This document shows positions 37,979-48,399 of a DNA stretch of 64,000 nucleotides, one piece after another. The position numbers and the translations under genes are program-made. The notes under the pieces were generated by a model, which did no database searches, was not told the origin of the DNA, and saw only the letters and a program-made list of their open reading frames with translations. Every line of letters starts with the position of its first letter. The first letter of the stretch is position 1. The stretch lies in contig JAJDAQ010000068.1 in NCBI GenBank assembly GCA_029261815.1, positions 1-64,000 on the forward strand. Direction: 5' to 3'. Origin of the DNA: Deltaproteobacteria bacterium (GTDB taxonomy: Bacteria > Myxococcota_A > UBA9160 > UBA6930).

Positions 37979-38614
37979 ATGCGTCCCGGCGACACGACTC
38001 AACGGCCCCTCTCGCTCGTTGCATTGGACGTCGCCGGCGTTGTGGTTTTCTGCGCCGCGCTCGTCTGGGCGGTATTGCAGGTGGCGGCGCTGCCGGGATG
38101 GACGGGTGCCCTCCTGTTGGGCGCGGCCGGAGTGGCCGGCATAGCGACCGCCGACTTTTCGAGCGGCGTCGTGCATTGGCTCGGCGACACCTACGGTTCC
38201 GAGGAGACGCCGCTCCTGGGCCGCGCCTTGATCCTGCCGTTCCGCGAACATCACACGGACCCGATGGCCATCGTTCGTCATGGCTTCCTGGAAGTCACGG
38301 GCAACAACGCCTGGGGGGCGACGCCCTTCGTCTGGCTCGCGGGTAAGCTCGCGCCCGCCGTTGGCACGGATCCGTGGGCGACCGCCAGCTTCGGGTTCCT
38401 GGTGGCCTTGTCGATCACGGGCGTGATCAGCAATCAGCTGCATCGCTACGCACACATGGCCGAAGTCCCGGTCGCGGTTCGTTGCCTGCAGCGGTGGGGC
38501 GTCTTGCTGTCGCGCGAGGTGCATTCCCATCATCATCGCAACGCGCACGATCATGCGTTCTGCGTGGTGAACGGCTGGATGAATCCGATCCTGGACCGCT
38601 GGGTGCGGCCTTGA
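37979..38614 (+). CDS. carF: Plasmanylethanolamine desaturase, CarF/TMEM189 (Kua) family
   Basis: A 211-residue four-helix membrane enzyme with the full set of His motifs of the lipid-desaturase/Kua domain: SSGVVHWLGDTYG, PFREHHTDPMAIVRHGF, NQLHRYAHM and SREVHSHHHRNAHDHAF. In Myxococcus CarF and animal PEDS1 this fold introduces the vinyl-ether double bond of plasmalogens from alkyl-ether phospholipids using a diiron centre and O2. All eight or so His candidates are present. The following membrane protein overlaps by 4 bases (TTGA). No ether-lipid synthesis gene is visible in the window. Confidence 0.9.
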   Translation: MRPGDTTQRPLSLVALDVAGVVVFCAALVWAVLQVAALPGWTGALLLGAAGVAGIATADFSSGVVHWLGDTYGSEETPLLGRALILPFREHHTDPMAIVRHGFLEVTGNNAWGATPFVWLAGKLAPAVGTDPWATASFGFLVALSITGVISNQLHRYAHMAEVPVAVRCLQRWGVLLSREVHSHHHRNAHDHAFCVVNGWMNPILDRWVRP

Positions 38615-39336
38615 ACTTCGAGAGTTGGCACGCGTTCTACTACGGGGCCTGGCAATGGCCATGGGCGTTGTTGGTCGTCCCCTTCGCTTGGATGATCGCC
38701 CGCGCCGTCGGTCGAGGTGCGCCGCCGACGGACCTGCTCGGTCGCTTCATTCGTCTCTGGAGCACGATCTTCCTGGTCGAGACGATGCTGGACCCGATCG
38801 CGGGCCAGCTCGTGAAGTCGGCGAGCGATCCGGTTCAGACGGGTGTGGGCCTCTTTTTCGTTCTGGCCGGAGACTTCCGGATCTACTGGCTGCTCGTCGC
38901 GTTGGTCGAGCGCGGCGCGTGGACATGGGCCGGCGTTGCACGCGCGCTGGGGTTGACCCTCATCGTGCCGGCAGCAGCCTTTGTGCTGACGAGAACCCTG
39001 GGTGCCATTCACGGGGAAGTGCCGGGACAGGTCCTGTGGCTGACCCATGAAGCGCTCTTCGTCGCCGTCATCGTTTTCGCCGCACGTTTCTGGGTGCCGA
39101 GTGCGCTCGAAGGGGAGGCCGCCCGTCTGGCGCGCCGGATCTGCGCCTGGGTCGCTGTCTACTACAGCCTCTGGGCGGCCGCCGACGTCCTGATCCTGGC
39201 CGGGGTCGATGCGGGCTGGCTCGTACGCTGCATCCCCAACCAGCTCTACTACGCGCTGACGGTTCCGTTCGTCGAGTGCGCCGCTCGCTGCGTCTCGAAT
39301 GCGCGCACCAGTACGTCGGCCCAGGCCGCGAGGTAG
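38611..39336 (+). CDS. Membrane protein of unknown function next to carF
   Basis: A 241-residue protein with about seven hydrophobic segments (WQWPWALLVVPFAWMIA, VQTGVGLFFVLAGDFRIYW, LGLTLIVPAAAFVL, others). I recognise no family. It starts at TTG 38611, overlapping the carF stop, so it is most likely translated together with CarF and may work on the same lipids (inference). Its final 88 bases overlap the SIS-creatininase gene on the opposite strand. Low similarity to anything I know; a reading-frame test across relatives would help. Confidence 0.65.
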   Translation: MNFESWHAFYYGAWQWPWALLVVPFAWMIARAVGRGAPPTDLLGRFIRLWSTIFLVETMLDPIAGQLVKSASDPVQTGVGLFFVLAGDFRIYWLLVALVERGAWTWAGVARALGLTLIVPAAAFVLTRTLGAIHGEVPGQVLWLTHEALFVAVIVFAARFWVPSALEGEAARLARRICAWVAVYYSLWAAADVLILAGVDAGWLVRCIPNQLYYALTVPFVECAARCVSNARTSTSAQAAR

Positions 39337-41069
39337 CGCTCGGCTCGGTCGCGCGAGGCCCGGCGCGGGTCGCCGACCACACCGTCACGCGCATGCCGGC
39401 GCAGGTCCGGGTAGAAGAGCGCGCTTCCGGAAGGCGCCGACTCCATGAAGCCGCGCTTCAGGGCATTGCGCCGGACGGCGCCCGGTCGGATGCGGTCGAG
39501 GATCGAAGTCTCGAGCTCGCCAGCGTGTTGCCCCGCTTCGGCGGCCGAGATTCCAGGGTCCGCCGCCAGCATCTCCTCGAAGAGCGCTCCGTGCTCGGTG
39601 AACGCGAACCAATGCGCGGGCGCGGCGGCCTGGACCAGCCGCTCGCTGTGGTTGCGCAATGTCCCGAGGTTTCCACCGTGCGCCGAATAACAAAAAACAT
39701 GCTCGAAGCCGTGGTGCGCGAGGGACTCGCCAATGTCAGCCAGGACGGCCGCGAGCGTTTCCTCGGTCACGCTCAACGTTCCGGCGAATGCGAGGTGTTC
39801 GCTCGCCGCTCCGACCGGCAGCGTGGGCAACAAGACCGCGTCCGGCATGCGCTCCACGACCCGGAGTCCGACGGCTTCAGCGATCCAGGTATCCGTGGCG
39901 AGCGGCAGGTGGGGGCCGTGTTGTTCGGTGGATCCGAGCGGGAGCAGCGCGGTTCGTCGTCCGGCGGCCAGGTGGGCATCGACTTCGGGCCAGGTCGCGG
40001 CATCCAACTGGATCCCGGGCCGTGTCCGAGGGCCGGGCGCGAGGTCGCGTCCGACGCCGTAGAGCGGTTCGTCTTCATCCTTGCCCGGCCACGTCTCCGG
40101 GTCCCGCTGAGCGGCCGCCATGGCCGCCAGGATGAATGCATTGGCCGCGGCTTCGGCCTCGATCGCCGCGAGGGGCTCGGGAAGGGTCGTCCAGACCGGA
40201 ACGAGCCGGTGGTGCCGGGCGTCGAGCATGCGGCCGATCCGGTCGAGGTGATCGGGGGCGGCGGGGTCATTCTGCGCGACGAAGGCCACCACGAACGCCG
40301 GCCCGTTCCGCACGACCTGGAATGGACCGTGGGCGAAATCGAGCAGATCTGTCACCGGGGGCATGGGTCGCAAGAGCGCCTCGGACGCTTTCAGTCGCAG
40401 GTTGTCGAGATGAGGGGCCAGCGCTCCACCCGCGAGGAAGAGAAGCGGCGCGGAGGCGAGCAGCGCCGCCTCCGCGCGCGCAGATGCTTGCGCTGCGGAG
40501 AATGCGGCTTGCGCAGCGCCTGCGACTTCGGCCGCCGACGGTCCCGGGGCCGCGCCGAATGCGCGCGCGACCTGCCAGGCCGGCCAGTACGCAATCGCGG
40601 GCCCGGCCAAGCGAACCAGCGTCCCGTACTCGTCACCGGCACCGGAGTCGACCAGGATGGCGCCGGCATCCTCCAGCGCTTGCGCAAATTGACCGCGCTC
40701 GTCGGGGCCCGGTCGTGTCGACGTGACGACGACGAGACCCTGCCAGGCGCCAGGCTCCGCGGTGGCGAGGCGGGCATTGGGCGAAAGCCCCTGGCTGAAG
40801 ACCACCAGCAGGTCTTCCCGATGACGCTGAGCGTGCTCGGCCGGGAAGGAACTCGGAGACAGGAAGCGCGCCGGCACACCGAGTCCGCCGAGGTGGTGGG
40901 CGAGGCTGCGCGCGTGGGCGCCCGAGCTTCCCACGCCGGTCGTGACGACGCGCCGGATGCCCGCGGTCGGTAGCTCGAGAAGCGCGTCGCCCAGCGCCTC
41001 GATTCGTGCCGGAACCGACGCCGCCCGTTGGCGAAGCCGAGCGAGGGCGTTGTCGGTCCCCGCAGACAT
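39249..41069 (-). CDS. Double-SIS (GlmS-like) domain fused to creatininase domain
   Basis: 606 residues. Residues 1-330 look like two SIS sugar-phosphate-binding subdomains: TTGVGSSGAHARSLAHHLGG (44-63), VFSQGLSPNARLA (90-102), then LKASEALLRP and DFAHGPFQVV, the GlmS-like Glu and HGP positions. Residues 350-590 form a creatininase-family amidohydrolase: GSTEQHGPHLPLATD with E382, H384 and D393 as metal ligands, SAHGGN (H464) and GQHAGELETS (H515/E518). Creatininase members open cyclic amides or deformylate, for example ArfB acting on FAPy. Starts 5 bases after the cyclohydrolase gene. I know no characterised protein with this fusion. Confidence 0.82.
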   Translation of the reverse strand: MSAGTDNALARLRQRAASVPARIEALGDALLELPTAGIRRVVTTGVGSSGAHARSLAHHLGGLGVPARFLSPSSFPAEHAQRHREDLLVVFSQGLSPNARLATAEPGAWQGLVVVTSTRPGPDERGQFAQALEDAGAILVDSGAGDEYGTLVRLAGPAIAYWPAWQVARAFGAAPGPSAAEVAGAAQAAFSAAQASARAEAALLASAPLLFLAGGALAPHLDNLRLKASEALLRPMPPVTDLLDFAHGPFQVVRNGPAFVVAFVAQNDPAAPDHLDRIGRMLDARHHRLVPVWTTLPEPLAAIEAEAAANAFILAAMAAAQRDPETWPGKDEDEPLYGVGRDLAPGPRTRPGIQLDAATWPEVDAHLAAGRRTALLPLGSTEQHGPHLPLATDTWIAEAVGLRVVERMPDAVLLPTLPVGAASEHLAFAGTLSVTEETLAAVLADIGESLAHHGFEHVFCYSAHGGNLGTLRNHSERLVQAAAPAHWFAFTEHGALFEEMLAADPGISAAEAGQHAGELETSILDRIRPGAVRRNALKRGFMESAPSGSALFYPDLRRHARDGVVGDPRRASRDRAERYLAAWADVLVRAFETQRAAHSTNGTVSA

Positions 41070-41074
41070 GGTGA

Positions 41075-42094
41075 CTAGGGCGTTCGCGCGAGCAGGGCCG
41101 CGACGTGCGGCGAGCCCGGCGATTCATCGGGTGCGAGGAACAGCGCGCGGCCGGCGCCGGCTGCTTCGATCTCGCTGCGCAGGCGGCGCCAGTCGGCCGC
41201 GTCCGGGCCGGGTTCGACCAGCGGGAAACGGTCCGTCAGGGTCTGGGCGACGACGCCGCGCGGCCCGCCATCCCGCCCGAGTTCGAGGACGACGCGCTCG
41301 GTCCCGCGCAGCAGATCGAAGTAGACGTGGCAGCGGTACCAGACGGGCTCGGGCGCATCGGCCTGAAGCGGATGTAGTGGCAACAGGTAGGAGGCGACAT
41401 GCGCCACGTGGGGGAGGTCGGCGAGGAGGCTGCCGTCCGTCCACTCGACCGTCTCCGGGAGTCGGGCGGCGGTGGCGCGCCCCGGGTTCTCGAAAGCATG
41501 GCCCGATGCGGACTTGGCCGCGAGGTAGTGCTGGTTGAACGGCGAGACGTGTGGGTCGACCCGCTGTGTCCCCGAAACAGCGACCTTGGCTTGCTCGAGC
41601 CCGATGATCTTGTCCGGGTTGTTGGTCAGCAGCTGAAGGGGCGCGCAAACGCCCAGGGCCTGGAGTGCGAACGCGACCTCGCGATAGCTGCGCGCGTCCG
41701 CCGGGAGACCCATTCGTTCGTAGGCCTCGAACGTGTGGATCCGCTCCTTCGAAGCCTGGACCATCATCCGGTCGCGTGCCTTCGCGACGAAGCCCGCGCC
41801 TCGTCCTTCCTGCATCAGGTAGATCAGGACGCCGCGGCCGGCGCGGTCGATCGCGTCGAGGCCGCCGGCCAGCTGCTGTGCACAATCGCAGTCGCAGGCG
41901 CCGAAGACTTCGCTGGTGATGCAGGCCGAATGGATGCGTGCCAGGACCGGCTCGTGGGTCGAGACCTCTCCGCGTGCGAGCGTCCAGACGGATTCGCCCC
42001 GCGCCAGGTCCAGGAAGCGGGTACCACGGAAAGCGCCGTGCCGCGTCTTCAATGCGCGGCGTTCGACTTCGAGCAGGGATCCGAAGAGCGGCAT
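41075..42094 (-). CDS. Variant GTP cyclohydrolase II with C-terminal extension
   Basis: 339 residues against 196 in E. coli RibA. The RibA domain (residues 15-200) aligns closely: LARIHSACIT and CDCDC supply zinc ligands C58, C69 and C71; QEGRGAG; the Asp/Arg pair D133/R135 in ADAR; LLTNNPDKI. E. coli Tyr105 aligns without gaps to R109 (KARDRMM). In Streptomyces a paralogue with Met here stops at the formylated product FAPy. The last 140 residues have no counterpart in RibA and are unrecognised. Four-base gap after the crotonase gene. Probably not the riboflavin housekeeping enzyme. Confidence 0.85.
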   Translation of the reverse strand: MPLFGSLLEVERRALKTRHGAFRGTRFLDLARGESVWTLARGEVSTHEPVLARIHSACITSEVFGACDCDCAQQLAGGLDAIDRAGRGVLIYLMQEGRGAGFVAKARDRMMVQASKERIHTFEAYERMGLPADARSYREVAFALQALGVCAPLQLLTNNPDKIIGLEQAKVAVSGTQRVDPHVSPFNQHYLAAKSASGHAFENPGRATAARLPETVEWTDGSLLADLPHVAHVASYLLPLHPLQADAPEPVWYRCHVYFDLLRGTERVVLELGRDGGPRGVVAQTLTDRFPLVEPGPDAADWRRLRSEIEAAGAGRALFLAPDESPGSPHVAALLARTP

Positions 42095-42098
42095 GCGC

Positions 42099-42899
42099 CT
42101 AACTTGGATCCTCGAACCGGGGCTTTCGCTTTTCCATGTTGGCTTTGACGGCCTCTTGCTGGTTGGGCTTGCCCATGAGGGTGCCCTGGAGCCGGGCTTC
42201 GAGGGCCAGGCCGTCCTCGACCGTTCCCACGACCGCCTGGTTCCACAGTTGTTTGGCCGCGCGGACCGCGTCCGGGCTGCGCTCGGCGATCTCGTACGCG
42301 AGCTTCATGGCGTCCGCGTGCGGGTCTTCGCTCACATGCGTGGCCAGGCCGAGTTCCTTCGCTTCGACGCCCGAGATGACCCGGGCGGTGAAGGTGAGTT
42401 CCTTGGCGTGGTCGAGTCCGATCAGGTGGCGCAACGTCTGTGTGCCCGAGACATCGGGGATCAAGCCCCAGTGCGATTCGCGAATGGACAGCCGGGCATC
42501 GGGCGCGACGTACCGGATATCCGCACCGAGGGCGATCTGGATGCCGGCGCCGTAGGCCACGCCGTGGACGGCGGCGATGACGGGGACCGGGACTTCTTGC
42601 CAGACCCAGGCGGCGCGCTGCGCGTAGTTGGCCGGGCTCTCGTCGCTCTTTGTCGCGAGGTTGGGGCCCTCGCGCTTGCCCGTGTTGGCCATCAGGCCGG
42701 GAATGTCGAGCCCGCTGCAGAATGCCCGGCCTTCGCCCGAAAGCACCACCGCGCGCAGGCTCTTGTCCTGGGCGAGTTCGGCGCCGGTTTCGACCAGGGC
42801 CATGAACATGTCCAGGTCGACGGCATTCATCTTGTCGGCGCGCGCCATGCGCACGTCGGCAATGCCGTCCTTCTTCTCCACGCGAACCCGATCGGACAT
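42099..42899 (-). CDS. Enoyl-CoA hydratase/isomerase (crotonase) family protein
   Basis: 266 residues. Oxyanion-hole segments are AFCSGLDIPGL and the ACC-like AAVHGVAYGAGIQIAL; RESHWGLIPDVSGTQTLRHL covers the catalytic loop, with Glu in RES and Asp in PDVSG. The C-terminus ends in the charged helix KANMEKRKPRF. A GGAGG-like site precedes ATG 42899. It is third from the regulator in the HxlR-divergent operon, between the CMD-like protein and the cyclohydrolase homologue, so it may serve the same pathway rather than fatty-acid oxidation. Confidence 0.87.
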   Translation of the reverse strand: MSDRVRVEKKDGIADVRMARADKMNAVDLDMFMALVETGAELAQDKSLRAVVLSGEGRAFCSGLDIPGLMANTGKREGPNLATKSDESPANYAQRAAWVWQEVPVPVIAAVHGVAYGAGIQIALGADIRYVAPDARLSIRESHWGLIPDVSGTQTLRHLIGLDHAKELTFTARVISGVEAKELGLATHVSEDPHADAMKLAYEIAERSPDAVRAAKQLWNQAVVGTVEDGLALEARLQGTLMGKPNQQEAVKANMEKRKPRFEDPS

Positions 42900-42924
42900 C
42901 CAACCTCCAAGGTGAAGGGGGATG

Positions 42925-43488
42925 CTAGCCCGTCTCCGGCGCAGCCGGGAACCGTTCGGCCATGGACTCGAGTGGGAGCCTCAGCGCATTCACCAGGAAT
43001 GACACAGCGTGGTACATCCCGACCGTGTAGATGATCTCGAGGGATTGCTCCTCGTCGAAGTGTTCACGGAGTGCTTCCCAGGCCGTGTCGGAGAGGTCCG
43101 AAGTCCGGTGGAGTTCGTCACACACGCGGACCAGCGCGGCCTCGCGCGGGTTCCAGCCGGCGTCGGTGGCCCCCGCTTGGGCCGTGCGCGCGACCCAGGC
43201 ATCGTCGAGGCCCAGGGCGCGGGCGAACGCCGTGACGTGTACGCCCCATTCGTACTCGGCGCCGCAATTGGCCGTCGTCCGGTGGATCACGAGTTCTCGG
43301 TCACGAATCGGGACCGGCCCGCGGTCGAGCACGCCAGCGCGCATGAAGCGGGGGAAGATGCGCGTGTTGGTGGCCAGGACGCGGAACAGCAGCAGCGGGT
43401 CCATCCCCGGCGGCATGGCGAGATCGAACAGGTGTTGGACCTCGTCGGTGTAGGGCGGCTCGAGGGGGAGGATGCGGGGCGTCGTCAT
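42925..43488 (-). CDS. Carboxymuconolactone decarboxylase family (AhpD-like) protein
   Basis: 187 residues of the CMD/AhpD all-helical fold. The core segment is RDRELVIHRTTANCGAEYEW, followed by GVHV: Cys then Glu-x-Glu-Trp-x-x-His, so the CxxC redox pair of AhpD is reduced to one Cys and a peroxidase role is unlikely. Strong AAGGAGAT ribosome site before ATG 43488. First gene of the operon divergent from hxlR, with a palindromic operator in the 77-base gap. Confidence 0.86.
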   Translation of the reverse strand: MTTPRILPLEPPYTDEVQHLFDLAMPPGMDPLLLFRVLATNTRIFPRFMRAGVLDRGPVPIRDRELVIHRTTANCGAEYEWGVHVTAFARALGLDDAWVARTAQAGATDAGWNPREAALVRVCDELHRTSDLSDTAWEALREHFDEEQSLEIIYTVGMYHAVSFLVNALRLPLESMAERFPAAPETG

Positions 43489-43500
43489 CAGGATCTCCTT

Positions 43501-43546
43501 GCTACGGAAAACGAAGCGTCTTTTCGAATGCTACGTTTTCCGTAGC
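43501..43546. promoter_or_regulatory. Palindromic operator in the CMD/hxlR divergent region
   Basis: GCTACGGAAAACG (43501-43513) and CGTTTTCCGTAGC (43534-43546) are perfect 13-base inverted repeats, 20 bases apart. The right arm also forms a smaller palindrome, GCTACG-TTTTC-CGTAGC (43530-43546). The element fills most of the 77-base gap between the two divergent starts, ideal for autoregulation by the HxlR protein. Confidence 0.7.
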
Positions 43547-43565
43547 TATTCGCAAGGAGAATCCG

Positions 43566-43892
43566 ATGTCCCCGCCCCAGCCCGGTCGTCCCGTTCGCGG
43601 CTCACGAACGGGACGGCCGATCATGGCCGCCCTCGACCTCCTGGGTCGCCGTTGGACGCTCCGCGTCCTGTGGGAACTCCGTGAGGGCCCCGCCACCTTT
43701 CGGGCGCTTCAGGAACGCTGCGGCGGCATCTCGCCGAGTGTGCTCAATACGCGCCTTCGGGAACTGCGCGACGCCGGGATCGTGGGGGAGGCCCTGGCCG
43801 AGGGCACCGCGCTGACCCGCCAGGGCGAGGCCTTGCTGAAGGCGCTGGGACCGCTGGACGGCTGGGCCAAGCGGTGGGCGAAGAGACGTTAG
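43566..43892 (+). CDS. HxlR-family winged-helix regulator
   Basis: 108 residues, the usual HxlR length. Motifs LLGRRWTLRVLWELREGPATF, within which the first helix lies (residues 25-45), and [19 protein letters not shown], the recognition helix and wing lead-in. One Cys (in QERCGG, residue 47) rather than the redox pair or N-terminal Cys of HypR-type sensors. A strong AAGGAGA site precedes ATG. Divergent from the four-gene CMD-crotonase-cyclohydrolase-SIS/creatininase operon, and very likely its regulator through the 43501-43546 palindrome. Confidence 0.88.
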   Translation: MSPPQPGRPVRGSRTGRPIMAALDLLGRRWTLRVLWELREGPATFRALQERCGGISPSVLNTRLRELRDAGIVGEALAEGTALTRQGEALLKALGPLDGWAKRWAKRR

Positions 43893-43895
43893 GCG

Positions 43896-45236
43896 TCAGT
43901 ACGCCGCAGCCGGAAGCCAGGTGACGAGCGCGGGCCAGAAGAGAAGCGTCGCGAGTCCGATCAGTTGCAGGGCGACGAACGGGGCGACGCCGCGATAGAG
44001 GTGCGGAAGCTCGATGCCCTCGGGCGCAACGCCCTTCAGATAGAAGAGCGCGAAGCCCACCGGGGGCGTCAGGAACGACGTCTGGAGGCAGACCGCGACC
44101 AGGATGGTGAACCAGAGCTTGTCGATCCCCAGGGTGGTCGTAATCGGCTCGACCAGTGGAAGCACGATCAGCGTGATCTCGATCCAGTCGAGGAAGAAGC
44201 CCAGCGCGAAGACGAGTGCCAACAAGCAGAGCACCACGCCGGTCGGCCCGAAGGGGAGGGCCGTGATCGCCCCCTCGATGACTTCGTCGCCGCCCAGTCC
44301 GCGCAGGACGACCGAGAAGCAGGTGGCGCCGAGGAAGATGGCGAAGATGAACGACGTCGTGCGCGCGGTCGCGCGAGACGTATCGCGCAGCGTCTGCAGT
44401 CGGAGCCTTCCCTTGACCGCCGCCAGCAGGGTCGCTCCCGCGGCGCCGACGCCGGCGGCCTCGGACGGTGACACGATGCCGAAAAAGATCGAGCCGAGGA
44501 CCGAGCCGATCAGGGCCAGGGGCGGCAGCAGTGCACGGATGACGTTCCAGAGCGCGGCGCGGTCCATGCGTGTCGCATTCGCGGGTGCCAGGTGCGGCCG
44601 TGCTGTGCACAACACGATCAGGTACGTCAGGTAGAGGCCGGCAAGCAGGAGGCCGGGGAAGACGGCGCCCAGGAAGAGGTCGCCGACGGACAGCTGCATC
44701 GGCTCGCTCATCAGGACGAGCATGATGCTGGGTGGAATCAGGATGCCGAGGCAACCAGCAGCAGCCACGGTTCCGACGGCGAGTTCCGGCTGGTAGCCGT
44801 CGTCGAGCATGGCCGGAAGGGCCAGGGTGCCCAGCAACGCCACCGAGGCGCCGATGATGCCCGTGGAGGCAGCCAGGACAACTCCCAGCAGTGTCACCGC
44901 GATCGCGAGTCCCCCCGACATCCGCCCCAGGGCCTGCTGCATCGCGCGCAACAGTTCGCCCGCGATGCCGCTGTGGTCGAGCATGTGCCCCATGAAGATG
45001 AACAACGGCAATGGAACGAGGCCGTAGTTGGACATGGTTCCGTAGATCCGGTCGACGACGAGACTCAGCGTGGTCAGGTCGGCATCCACCGGGACCCCGT
45101 TCGCGTTCAAGACCTCGCCGAGGATGGCGAACCAGACCCCCACGCCGGCGAGCACCCAGGCGACCGGATAGCCCGACATCAGCAGAGCGATGAAGCTCGT
45201 GAACATCAACGCGACGAAGACGAGGTTCCAGTCCAT
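43896..45236 (-). CDS. dctM: TRAP transporter large permease (DctM)
   Basis: 446 residues with about twelve transmembrane helices. Family segments: LPLFIFMGHMLDHSGIAGELL near residue 90, GAVFPGLLLAGLYL, LTPPVGFALFYLKGVAP near the C-terminus. It forms the transport channel of a tripartite ATP-independent periplasmic transporter, driven by the Na+ or H+ gradient. ATG 45236 is 2 bases from the dctQ stop. Substrate not predictable; TRAP systems usually carry organic acids. Ends 3 bases from the hxlR stop. Confidence 0.92.
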   Translation of the reverse strand: MDWNLVFVALMFTSFIALLMSGYPVAWVLAGVGVWFAILGEVLNANGVPVDADLTTLSLVVDRIYGTMSNYGLVPLPLFIFMGHMLDHSGIAGELLRAMQQALGRMSGGLAIAVTLLGVVLAASTGIIGASVALLGTLALPAMLDDGYQPELAVGTVAAAGCLGILIPPSIMLVLMSEPMQLSVGDLFLGAVFPGLLLAGLYLTYLIVLCTARPHLAPANATRMDRAALWNVIRALLPPLALIGSVLGSIFFGIVSPSEAAGVGAAGATLLAAVKGRLRLQTLRDTSRATARTTSFIFAIFLGATCFSVVLRGLGGDEVIEGAITALPFGPTGVVLCLLALVFALGFFLDWIEITLIVLPLVEPITTTLGIDKLWFTILVAVCLQTSFLTPPVGFALFYLKGVAPEGIELPHLYRGVAPFVALQLIGLATLLFWPALVTWLPAAAY

Positions 45237-45238
45237 GT

Positions 45239-45784
45239 CTACGTCGAGGTCTCTCGGGCATGGGGCGGGTCGGCGGGTGCGCCCAACAACGTCGCGAGCT
45301 GTCGAGCCGCCGTTCCCAGTGCCTGGATCGCGAGCAGGGCCAACGCGAAGAACAGGACGCCCTTGATCGCCCACCGCGCGGGCAAGCCGCTCGGCATCGA
45401 CGAGCGTTCGCCCATGTCCCAGGACTGCACGAAGAAGTCCCATGCGGAAGCCGCGGTGATCAGGGCGAACGGAAGCAGGAGGGCCAGGGTTCCGACCAGT
45501 TCGACCCAGGCCCTGGTGCGCGGGGAGAATCGCGCGTGCAACAGGTCCACGCGTACGTGGTCATCGTTGACCATGGCGTAGGCGTAGGCGAGCAGGAAGC
45601 CGGCGGCGTACAGGTGCCACTGGAGTTCTTCGAGCTCGATGAAGCCGCGACCGAAGCCGTAGCGGAGCGCCACGTTGACGATCAGGACCGCGCCAAGGAC
45701 CGGATAGAGCCAGGCGGCGGCCTCTCCGACCCGGGTCGAGAGCGCCGCCGTGGCCTGCGAGAAGCGCAGCAGAGCCTGGGTCAC
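45239..45784 (-). CDS. dctQ: TRAP transporter small permease (DctQ)
   Basis: 181 residues, four transmembrane helices, with the family segment YGFGRGFIELEELQWHLY and LLAYAYAMVNDDHVRVDLLH. It pairs with DctM and is required for TRAP transport. It starts 7 bases after the dctP stop, in the order P-Q-M typical of these operons. C-terminal 20 residues are soluble and vary in the family. Confidence 0.9.
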   Translation of the reverse strand: MTQALLRFSQATAALSTRVGEAAAWLYPVLGAVLIVNVALRYGFGRGFIELEELQWHLYAAGFLLAYAYAMVNDDHVRVDLLHARFSPRTRAWVELVGTLALLLPFALITAASAWDFFVQSWDMGERSSMPSGLPARWAIKGVLFFALALLAIQALGTAARQLATLLGAPADPPHARETST

Positions 45785-45791
45785 GACTGGT

Positions 45792-46868
45792 TCAGTTCGC
45801 CGCCGGCGGCGGGTACGCGATCGTGGACCAGGGCTTCTGGCGGGCCAGATAGCTGCGCTGCGAGTCGAGGGCGCGCGCGAAATCGGGGTCCTCGGCGCTC
45901 ATCTCGGCCAGTAGTTCCTCGGTCGCGTTCCGCATCACGTCGAGCATCTCGGGCGACCAGGTGTGGATCGTGACGCCGTCGGCTTCAAATGCGGCGAGCG
46001 CTTCGGCCTGGACCGAAACACCGCGCGCGATCTGGAAGATCGTAGTGGCGTGGCACGCGGTCTCGATCGTCGTGCGTTGGCCATCCGACAGGCCGTCCCA
46101 GACGGGCTTGTGCACGATCAGCTCCATGATCGACGCGGGCTGGTGCCAACCGGGAAAGTAGTAGTGCTTGGCCACCTTCTGGAAGCCGAGGTTCCGGTCG
46201 ACGACGGGCATGGAGTATTCCGTGGCGTCGAGGACACCGCGCTCGAGGGAGACGAAGAGATCGCCCGCCGGAATCTGGGTGGCAGAAGCGCCGAGTTTCT
46301 CGAGCACCTTGCCGCCGAGCCCGGCATAACGAACCTTCAAACCGACCAGGTCATCGGCAGATTCGATGGGTGTGCGAAACCAGCCAGAGGCCTCGGGCGG
46401 CAGCGCGCCGCAGGGAACCGGCACGAGGTCCACCTCGGCGTAGAGCTCGCGCCAGAGTTCGAGTCCGCCTCCCTCGTAGAGCCAGCCCAGTTGATCACGG
46501 GTTTCGGGACCGAACGGCACGGCACCGAAGACGGCGGCCGCCGGCACCTTGCCCAGCCAGTACGGCGAGAACGAGAGGCCGGCGTCGATCTTGCCGGCCG
46601 AGACCGCGTCGAAGATCTGCAGGGGCTTCACCAGCTTGTCGACGTCGTAGACCTTGATGTCCATCTCGTGGCCCGGAAGCGCATCGAGGGTGTCGCGCAG
46701 GTAGACGACCGCCTCGCCGAGCACGGGCATCGAAAACGGGTAGGAGCTCTGGATCTTGATCCGGACCCGTCGTTCGCCCGTGGCCTCGCCACTGGCCGTG
46801 TCCTGCGTGGGCGCTCCGCACCCGAGCAGCACCAGCGTGGCGAGGAAGGTGGCGGCCGCCCGCGTCAC
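45792..46868 (-). CDS. dctP: TRAP substrate-binding lipoprotein (DctP-type)
   Basis: 358 residues. The signal peptide ends in the lipobox LVLLGCGAP, so this TRAP binding protein is probably a lipoprotein. The mature part has the DctP/TAXI-like bilobal segments RIKIQSSYPF, LKVRYAGLGGKVLEKLGA and VLDATEYSMPVVDRNLGF, with the conserved substrate-binding Arg possibly in KVRYAG. GTG 46868 overlaps the previous stop by one base (TAGTG), suggesting translational coupling. Similar proteins bind mannitol, 2-oxoacids or other acids; ligand unknown. Confidence 0.88.
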   Translation of the reverse strand: MTRAAATFLATLVLLGCGAPTQDTASGEATGERRVRIKIQSSYPFSMPVLGEAVVYLRDTLDALPGHEMDIKVYDVDKLVKPLQIFDAVSAGKIDAGLSFSPYWLGKVPAAAVFGAVPFGPETRDQLGWLYEGGGLELWRELYAEVDLVPVPCGALPPEASGWFRTPIESADDLVGLKVRYAGLGGKVLEKLGASATQIPAGDLFVSLERGVLDATEYSMPVVDRNLGFQKVAKHYYFPGWHQPASIMELIVHKPVWDGLSDGQRTTIETACHATTIFQIARGVSVQAEALAAFEADGVTIHTWSPEMLDVMRNATEELLAEMSAEDPDFARALDSQRSYLARQKPWSTIAYPPPAAN

Positions 46869-47845
46869 TACTTGGCCTGGCGCAGGAATTCGGAGAGGCC
46901 GTAGCCCGTCCGGTCCCCGAGCTTCCATTCCGTCATGCCTTCGCCGATGTAGGTCTCGAGCTCACTGCGGCGGTTCCGCAGCGGAATGAAGTTCTGCACC
47001 GTGCCCGTGATGGTGTGCGACTCGCCGCTCTGGGTCTTGACGTGGGCCGTCACCGTCTTGTGGAAGGTGCCGTTGTCTTCGTACTCGGCATCGACCGTGG
47101 CTTCCACGATCCGGTCCATTTCGCCGTCGCGAATGATCACGCCGCCGGCGCTGCGTTGTTCGCCCGCCGCATCCTTCTGGACCACCGACACCATGGCGGC
47201 GAGGTCCGGCCCGAAGTTGAGCGTGAGCCACTCGTACTGGTGGATGGCCTGCCAGTGGCGCGGTCCCCAACTGTGGTCGCGCAACCCATAGCCGTCGACG
47301 TCGTAGACATCGTCTCCGATCTGCACGGATCCGGTCACGTGCATGTGCTGCTCGAAGTGGGCCTTGGCGAACGATTCCTCGGCCGAGCCGCCGTCGAGCT
47401 CTTCGTTCTTGTGGCCGTAGAGCGGGCCCGCGGCGTCGTGTTGCAGGTCGAAGCGCACCGCGACCTTGGGATTGTTCTTGAAGGCCTTGCTCGGGTCCTT
47501 CATGTCGCGCGGTTCGGCCATCAGCACACAGCGACCATCGAACGTCGTGCGATGCGTTTCCGTCGGCTCGACGACCTCGAAGGTCAGACCGCCGGCATCA
47601 TGCGCGTCGTTGTTGTCGATGCGCGGCCGGGCGAACGTGAAGGCCACTTTGCCGTCGGGCAGGTAGAGGCACACCGTCATCTCGGCCTGGCCTTCGTTGG
47701 CCCGGTTGCCGATCCGGAACCATCCACCGAGCGACGCGCGGGTGTCGAAGAAGTTGTAGTACGCACTCTCGTTGAAATTCGGCTCGGGGCCGAGGGGGTG
47801 CATGTAGTCGTCGGCGGGGTCGAGGTTTCCGATGATGCGGGCCAT
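46868..47845 (-). CDS. Lipocalin/CrtC-like conserved protein
   Basis: 325 residues, beta-rich, no signal peptide. It has VDGYGLRDHSWGPRHWQ near residue 215, a segment shared with CrtC/AttH-like and DUF7064-type lipocalins often found beside lipid- or steroid-degrading genes. I see no classical catalytic motif; CrtC enzymes hydrate carotenoids, others are unstudied. Strong AAGGAGC before ATG 47845. It is co-transcribed with a TRAP transporter (1-base overlap with dctP), so it may act on the transported substrate. Confidence 0.7.
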   Translation of the reverse strand: MARIIGNLDPADDYMHPLGPEPNFNESAYYNFFDTRASLGGWFRIGNRANEGQAEMTVCLYLPDGKVAFTFARPRIDNNDAHDAGGLTFEVVEPTETHRTTFDGRCVLMAEPRDMKDPSKAFKNNPKVAVRFDLQHDAAGPLYGHKNEELDGGSAEESFAKAHFEQHMHVTGSVQIGDDVYDVDGYGLRDHSWGPRHWQAIHQYEWLTLNFGPDLAAMVSVVQKDAAGEQRSAGGVIIRDGEMDRIVEATVDAEYEDNGTFHKTVTAHVKTQSGESHTITGTVQNFIPLRNRRSELETYIGEGMTEWKLGDRTGYGLSEFLRQAK

Positions 47846-47886
47846 GGTGCTCCTTCGTGCCGGCAACAGGCCGGCCGCGGAGGAGT

Positions 47887-48399
47887 CTACCGCGCGTCGA
47901 CGCCGAAGGTGGCCGAATGGTCGAAGCGGACGCGACGGCTGGTGAACTCGATCTCGAGCGCATAGACGCCGGGCTTCGCGTCGTCCGGCAGGCGGATGAA
48001 GGAATCGACGGCCCAGCGCCCCGGCTGCAGCTCGAAGGCCTCGTCGCGGTCCTGAAGCAGGACCTTGCCCTTGTAGCGGATGCGCGTCCGCAGGGTCCCG
48101 CCGGTGACCTCGGTGGCCTCGCGCGGGCACAGGGCGTAGACGAAGCGATGGTTGAACTCATCGCCCGGCTTCACACGGTTCGGGTTCACCTCCTGCTTCT
48201 CGAACACGAAGTAGGGGAGTCTCCGGCTCTCGCAGGAGTAGTCGGCGGCCACTTCGTCGGGCAGCGTGATCAGCTTCTGCCCGGGCTCGCGGAGTGCCCG
48301 GCGCGCCATTCCGACTGCGGTGCAGCCGAGGGTGGCGACGAGCAGCAGTGCGAGCGCGGTCGTCGCGCGGCGTGTGCGAATCAGCGGCGGATGAGCCAT
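47887..48399 (-). CDS. Predicted lipoprotein of unknown function
   Basis: 170 residues. A lipobox (LLLVATLGC, Cys26) follows a basic N-terminus with RTRR. The mature part is beta-rich, with Cys in DYSCESRRL and YALCPREA, possibly disulphide-linked. I recognise no family. It overlaps the kinase gene by 19 bases and precedes the CrtC-like gene by 41, so it belongs to the kinase-TRAP operon. The position of the domain suggests an outer-membrane or periplasmic partner; no function claimed. Confidence 0.65.
   Translation of the reverse strand: MAHPPLIRTRRATTALALLLVATLGCTAVGMARRALREPGQKLITLPDEVAADYSCESRRLPYFVFEKQEVNPNRVKPGDEFNHRFVYALCPREATEVTGGTLRTRIRYKGKVLLQDRDEAFELQPGRWAVDSFIRLPDDAKPGVYALEIEFTSRRVRFDHSATFGVDAR

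Follow-up and report, generated by a model that had tools for sequence, protein, structure and literature searches.

The locus analysed here raises the question of what is achieved by joining a double SIS module and a creatininase-fold amidohydrolase domain in one protein. The fusion, encoded in the window (the whole stretch of 64,000 nucleotides that was analysed), is conserved and lies within an apparently undescribed gene module, and it is best read as a step that makes or remodels a pterin-type or related pyrimidine ligand.

The SIS-creatininase fusion protein

39249..41069, minus strand: SIS::creatininase fusion gene, an uninterrupted open reading frame of 606 amino acids
40035..41069, minus strand: double SIS module, residues 1-345, assigned from its fold (VIA-align) and an AgaS profile match
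39285..40007, minus strand: creatininase-fold amidohydrolase domain, residues 355-595, assigned from PF02633, invariant residues and alignment to 3no4, 3lub and 1q3k

That one open frame encodes both parts, as the initial annotation had claimed without naming a strand, is borne out by the frame on the minus strand. The window is part of a draft genome in 181 contigs, in which two unrelated genes might be joined by chance or by the assembly, and a sequencing fusion had been named from the outset as a possible artefact. Because the full-length fusion is shared by 11 of 377 genomes in a survey of the phylum and by one further MAG beyond these 11 members, it is not an assembly error. All 11 genomes belong to the order of the window and span at least four genera, with the same fusion in the same order (one copy, in genome G236, is truncated by the end of its contig), and in a tree of 20 SIS sequences the fused ones all lie on one side of a branch with 100/99 support. 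An artefactual origin is thus extremely improbable and was rejected. Other families of the phylum have this SIS protein as a separate polypeptide of about 350 residues, and the separation of fused from stand-alone sequences by a single branch is compatible with one fusion event. No record in a plasmid collection covered 80% of the fusion. The search, which covered papers in an open literature collection, found no paper combining a creatininase with a SIS domain, nor any sign that such a fusion is common and has a known role.

The AlphaFold2 model of the fusion was built from an alignment of six fusion proteins and has a mean pLDDT of 74, with low-confidence stretches at residues 329-358, 423-430, 505-516 and 538-570. 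VIA-align with this model listed SIS matches only, and the creatininase half was recognized by Pfam, phmmer and Foldseek, the last of which matched creatininases for the second half of the model. The first half scores 13.6 bits with PF01380, under the Pfam cut-off of 25. The predicted fold of residues 1-341 is a complete double SIS module, which aligns with the isomerase domain of GlmS and with phosphosugar isomerases at Z of about 27 over about 300 residues; the matches at Z 27 include 3tbf, 2dec and 2cb0. A profile built from only the SIS half matched AgaS (3c3j, E = 2e-4), and the lKxxE...HGP positions fall together in the alignment.

The SIS motifs GVGSSG, SQG and HGP, already noticed in the initial annotation, are present and, except for some letters of GVGSSG, invariant in the six fusion proteins. 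Residues K227, E230 and H247 occupy the catalytic Lys, Glu and His positions of GlmS- and AgaS-type SIS enzymes in the second SIS domain; among 20 fused and stand-alone relatives, E230 and H247 never vary and K227 hardly does. The protein thus resembles GlmS, AgaS, the phosphosugar isomerases and the deglycases in its predicted double SIS fold and in these three positions. It differs from GlmS in lacking an N-terminal glutaminase domain, the SIS module beginning directly at the N-terminus, and from GlmS/AgaS-type enzymes generally in its phosphate loop, its C-terminal WPGxxxDxxLY motif and the attached amidohydrolase. The phosphate loop of the 20 relatives reads SQGLSxNA(R), not SxSGxT, which means that the ligand may lack the usual phosphate or may be bound differently. 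This altered loop, the presence of double-SIS regulators such as GKRP among the fold matches and the persistence of the SIS-only gene in other families that lack the enzyme partner would all suit a SIS half that is a non-catalytic sensor of a sugar phosphate or nucleotide phosphate, regulating the creatininase domain or the whole module in the manner of GKRP and other SIS regulators. A mere sensor would not need the conserved K227, E230 and H247, and we consider this role unlikely.

The creatininase half is matched by PF02633 at residues 358-590 (E = 3.8e-60; 203.7 bits against a cut-off of 31.3). Its metal-binding residues are E382, H384, D393, H464 and the HAGE sequence at 515-518; all those named in the initial annotation (E382, H384, D393, H464, H515 and E518) are in place and invariant in the six fusion proteins. 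The further claim that the creatininase ligands are complete fails in the strict sense. Creatininase proper (EC 3.5.2.10) uses Glu34, His36, Asp45, His120 and Glu122, and the fifth of these, in the sequence HYEN, corresponds to Gly466 in the sequence HGGN. The domain is accordingly a creatininase-family amidohydrolase and not a creatininase; glycine occupies the Glu122 position also in non-creatininase members of the family (alignment with 3no4, 3lub and 1q3k), and the creatininase profile TIGR04448 scores 80.5 bits, under its cut-off of 235.

The best NCBIfam match of this half is the MftE profile TIGR03964 (135 bits), and MftE genes, at about 39% identity, rank first among its matches in the plasmid collection; by profile score the domain is closer to MftE than to ArfB (NF033501, 15.8 bits, under a cut-off of 180). 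It might accordingly be imagined as an MftE-like peptidase in the maturation of a redox cofactor that derives from a peptide and serves the cytochrome. The MftE score is itself under the cut-off of 172, no mycofactocin radical-SAM enzyme exceeded its cut-off in 10 fusion genomes, and identity with MftE of the mycofactocin system was rejected on these two grounds. A peptidase of this kind is very unlikely here, since beside the fusion neither a precursor peptide nor a radical-SAM gene was seen, small open reading frames being covered unsystematically, and such a pathway would have no use for the GTP cyclohydrolase II-like partner described below.

The GTP cyclohydrolase II-like neighbour

41075..42094, minus strand: GTP cyclohydrolase II-like (GCHII-like) gene, 339 amino acids (PF00925, E = 6e-37), directly upstream of the fusion

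The stop of the GCHII-like gene is separated from the start of the fusion by 5 bp in the window, and the two genes overlap in G001, G057 and L018. This type of GCHII-like gene occurs in 9 of the 11 fusion genomes and in none of the 366 others (Fisher 1e-16, uncorrected for kinship), and none of the SIS-only genomes in the phylum survey has it. The genetic link between the fusion and the GCHII-like gene is strong. One genome (G040) has the fusion and the cytochrome c described below and lacks the GCHII-like gene. In another (G339), a GCHII-like fragment lies at a contig end with a CobW gene alongside.

The GCHII-like protein shares with RibA-type GTP cyclohydrolase II the PF00925 domain, the zinc cysteines, Arg128, Asp126 and Lys154. 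In comparison with the enzymes of E. coli, M. tuberculosis and H. pylori, it keeps Arg49, Cys54, Cys65, Cys67, Asp126, Arg128, Thr149 and Lys154, so that among the phosphate, zinc and catalytic positions compared only Tyr105 is lost. Tyr105, retained in the canonical enzymes, is replaced in all eight GCHII-like members; because a three-residue insertion lies beside it, the exact replacement (Arg or Met) is uncertain. The protein differs from RibA in this residue and insertion, in a C-terminal extension of about 130 residues and in its score with the RibA equivalog profile TIGR00505 (119 bits, under the cut-off of 206). The weaker GCHII matches, found in G129 and G279, retain Tyr105 and belong to ordinary enzymes. 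In work on Streptomyces SCO6655, a GTP cyclohydrolase II with Met at the Tyr105 position reportedly halts at the formylated product. A GCHII-like gene on the Rhizobium plasmid pCB3060_3 (L109, 3998-4597), located beside IS66, apparently has Met at this position and has DCDC and GRGAG features in common with the gene of the window.

The genome of the window (G000) encodes an ordinary RibBA on another contig and an ordinary FolE elsewhere, from which it follows that the branch formed by the GCHII-like protein and the fusion is not housekeeping. FolE was present in 19 of 20 genomes tested, including every fusion genome tested, and with RibBA in G000 this led us to reject the idea that the module replaces housekeeping folate or riboflavin synthesis.

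The pair might instead serve in catabolic salvage, breaking down a purine or pyrimidine nucleotide: the creatininase domain would open or deamidate the fragment of the base, the SIS half would free or isomerize the ribose phosphate, and the link with the cytochrome would be incidental. GCHII-like proteins without RibA function occur in uracil catabolism (URC1), and SIS enzymes often release sugar phosphates, both of which suit this explanation. The operon in the genus of the window also continues upstream (42099-47986, minus strand) with genes for an enoyl-CoA hydratase, a carboxymuconolactone decarboxylase-like protein, a DctPQM TRAP transporter and a DUF7064/7065 protein. These upstream genes were for the most part seen to be conserved only in G001, and the acyl-CoA and TRAP-transporter neighbours were set aside as functional context because they are seen only in the genus of the window, whereas the cytochrome c and membrane-protein genes track SIS across the phylum. 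The GCHII-like protein matches PRK07198, which we take to be the URC1-like group, weakly (24 bits against a cut-off of 403). Salvage is hence quite unlikely, and assignment of the GCHII-like gene itself to the URC1 type was rejected, since the weak profile match was all that spoke for it and the literature search yielded no supporting paper.

A biosynthetic use of the pair has precedents in the creatininase family, whose archaeal ArfB and bacterial BrbF deformylate a formylated ribosylaminopyrimidine (PMC9478397). BrbF (SMc02977) and ArfB, which belong to riboflavin/F420 synthesis, have the same creatininase-family fold and are likewise tied to a GTP-opening cyclohydrolase (PMC9478397); they differ from the present case in that here the creatininase domain is fused to a double SIS module and the host genome already has RibBA. 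Assignment as BrbF would be marked by clade II kinship with SMc02977 together with deformylation of AFRPP. The initial annotation had suggested a ribosylamino or aminosugar substrate. The ribosylamino part gains support from the GCHII-like gene, which lies directly upstream, is co-inherited and belongs to a family that makes ribosylaminopyrimidines, and from the deformylation of such a compound by ArfB and BrbF (PMC9478397); the aminosugar alternative found none. It is somewhat more likely than not that the fusion acts together with the GCHII-like enzyme on a ribosylaminopyrimidine.

The membrane protein and the PruR-like cytochrome c

38611..39336, plus strand: membrane protein with about six transmembrane (TM) segments and a TTG start, convergent with the fusion gene and overlapping its 3′ end
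37979..38614, plus strand: PF10520 lipid-desaturase-like membrane enzyme (CarF/PEDS1-like; PF10520, E = 3e-46)
G000:C137:57237-58031 (L069:7229-8053), minus strand: PruR-like cytochrome c of the genome of the window, unlinked to the fusion
L020:2722-3612, L021:6928-7803, L100, L104 and L083: CobW/COG0523 loci

The genes for the TM protein and the cytochrome c recur at nearly every SIS locus examined, whether SIS is fused or alone, and at the stand-alone loci the three genes are adjacent, often with overlapping start and stop codons. A PruR-like cytochrome c is present in 31 of 32 SIS genomes (Fisher 2e-33, uncorrected for kinship), so that its genetic link with SIS is also strong; in the genus of the window it is encoded apart from the fusion (contig 137 of G000 and contig 14 of G001). 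The TM protein beside the cytochrome c and SIS matched no Pfam or NCBIfam family, and its residues D61, D88, R90, E147, D192 and R206 are invariant in 19 aligned loci. In fourteen further genomes the cytochrome c occurs in the absence of SIS, and several of these also have the TM protein; the cytochrome is thus not dependent on SIS everywhere. From this distribution the cytochrome c and the TM protein look like the core of the module and SIS like an addition, and the GCHII-like gene and the creatininase domain look like a second addition, made in one order.

Several other features were observed around these genes. In genomes of family f1 without SIS, the cytochrome c also stands without the TM protein. 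A second, more distant subfamily of PruR-like cytochrome c (L106, L107 and families f16 and f21; E = 1e-18 to 1e-26) has the TM protein adjacent and no SIS in both loci examined. In the window, the PF10520 gene ends with a TGA that overlaps the TTG with which the TM gene starts. The PF10520 gene is an optional member that lies beside the TM gene in the genus of the window and in genus g34; it was also seen at L005:78-767, and in L107 close to the TM and cytochrome c genes. In several members of family f7, the gene for the cytochrome c or for the GCHII-like protein is preceded by one for a CobW/COG0523 GTPase, a hint of a role in metal supply. In genus g34 (L022, L065, L066 and L067), the module has FabH-, FabF- and PRK07515-like ketosynthase genes on its flanks, which suggests that its context is one of lipids or polyketides.

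The N-terminal 150 residues of the cytochrome c matched no Pfam family. The AlphaFold2 model of this domain (20 sequences, pLDDT 83) has PruR as its best fold match (Z 16.4, 128 residues, 2.4 A), followed by the Moco domains of sulfite oxidases, and the neopterin complex 7rkb, a PruR entry, is among the matches. The top match of the sequence profile is likewise 7rkb, weakly (E = 0.44), a value that leaves kinship with PruR unproven by sequence alone. PruR is a periplasmic protein that has no Moco cysteine and binds pterins in their reduced form (PMC13259868), and the cytochrome domain has no invariant cysteine either. It differs from PruR, a SUOX-like fold, in being fused to a cytochrome c and in its partners, which are the six-TM and SIS proteins; DcpA and DTB kinase were not seen with it. 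That the ligand of the cytochrome c may be a pterin is suggested by this predicted fold, and the chance that one pterin or pyrimidine ligand serves both the SIS protein and the cytochrome c appears evenly balanced.

A possible pterin-type pathway

Our tentative proposal, which we would place somewhat short of an even chance, is that the fusion is a bifunctional cytoplasmic enzyme of a dedicated GTP-derived pterin-type pathway serving a periplasmic, pterin-binding cytochrome c. The fusion itself, the operon and the co-occurrences are established; the reactions, the ligand and the flow through the pathway are inferred. The GCHII-like enzyme would open GTP and, lacking Tyr105, would halt at a formylated ribosylaminopyrimidine phosphate of the AFRPP/FAPy type. 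The creatininase domain would then deformylate this compound as a metal-dependent formamidase, in the manner of ArfB and BrbF. The SIS half may convert the resulting ribosylamine phosphate to the 1-deoxyribulose (Amadori) form, although this specific step is rather doubtful. The SIS family includes FrlB. FrlB is a deglycase of an Amadori compound (PMC9609667), and the reaction supposed here would run in the direction opposite to that of such deglycases. The Amadori product could close to a dihydroneopterin-type pterin, which might leave the cytoplasm and become the ligand of the PruR-like cytochrome domain; the six-TM protein might be the exporter or a membrane partner. Fusion of the two activities would hand over an unstable intermediate directly. 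In the SIS-only relatives, the housekeeping RibA or RibBA could provide substrate that is already deformylated, which would explain why the GCHII-like gene and the creatininase domain are absent there.

The three activities proposed would together equal those of FolE (GTP cyclohydrolase I), in which one protein performs ring opening, deformylation, the Amadori shift and ring closure; the proteins of the module are unrelated to FolE, which is present in these genomes in addition. The fullest form of the proposal, a FolE-independent route from GTP to a neopterin-type pterin distributed over the Tyr105-less GCHII-like enzyme, the creatininase domain and the SIS half, with the pterin as the periplasmic electron-transfer ligand of the cytochrome c, we infer with much reserve and consider improbable. 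If it were true, an extracytoplasmic cytochrome c would use a pterin as its redox ligand, and pterin biosynthesis would follow a second logic alongside that of FolE. On a weaker reading, the fusion still ties an unnamed SIS family, together with an unnamed membrane and cytochrome module spread through the phylum of the window, to a definite class of substrate that can be tested, and the co-occurrence with the GCHII-like gene points to a direct biochemical test, the release of formate from AFRPP.
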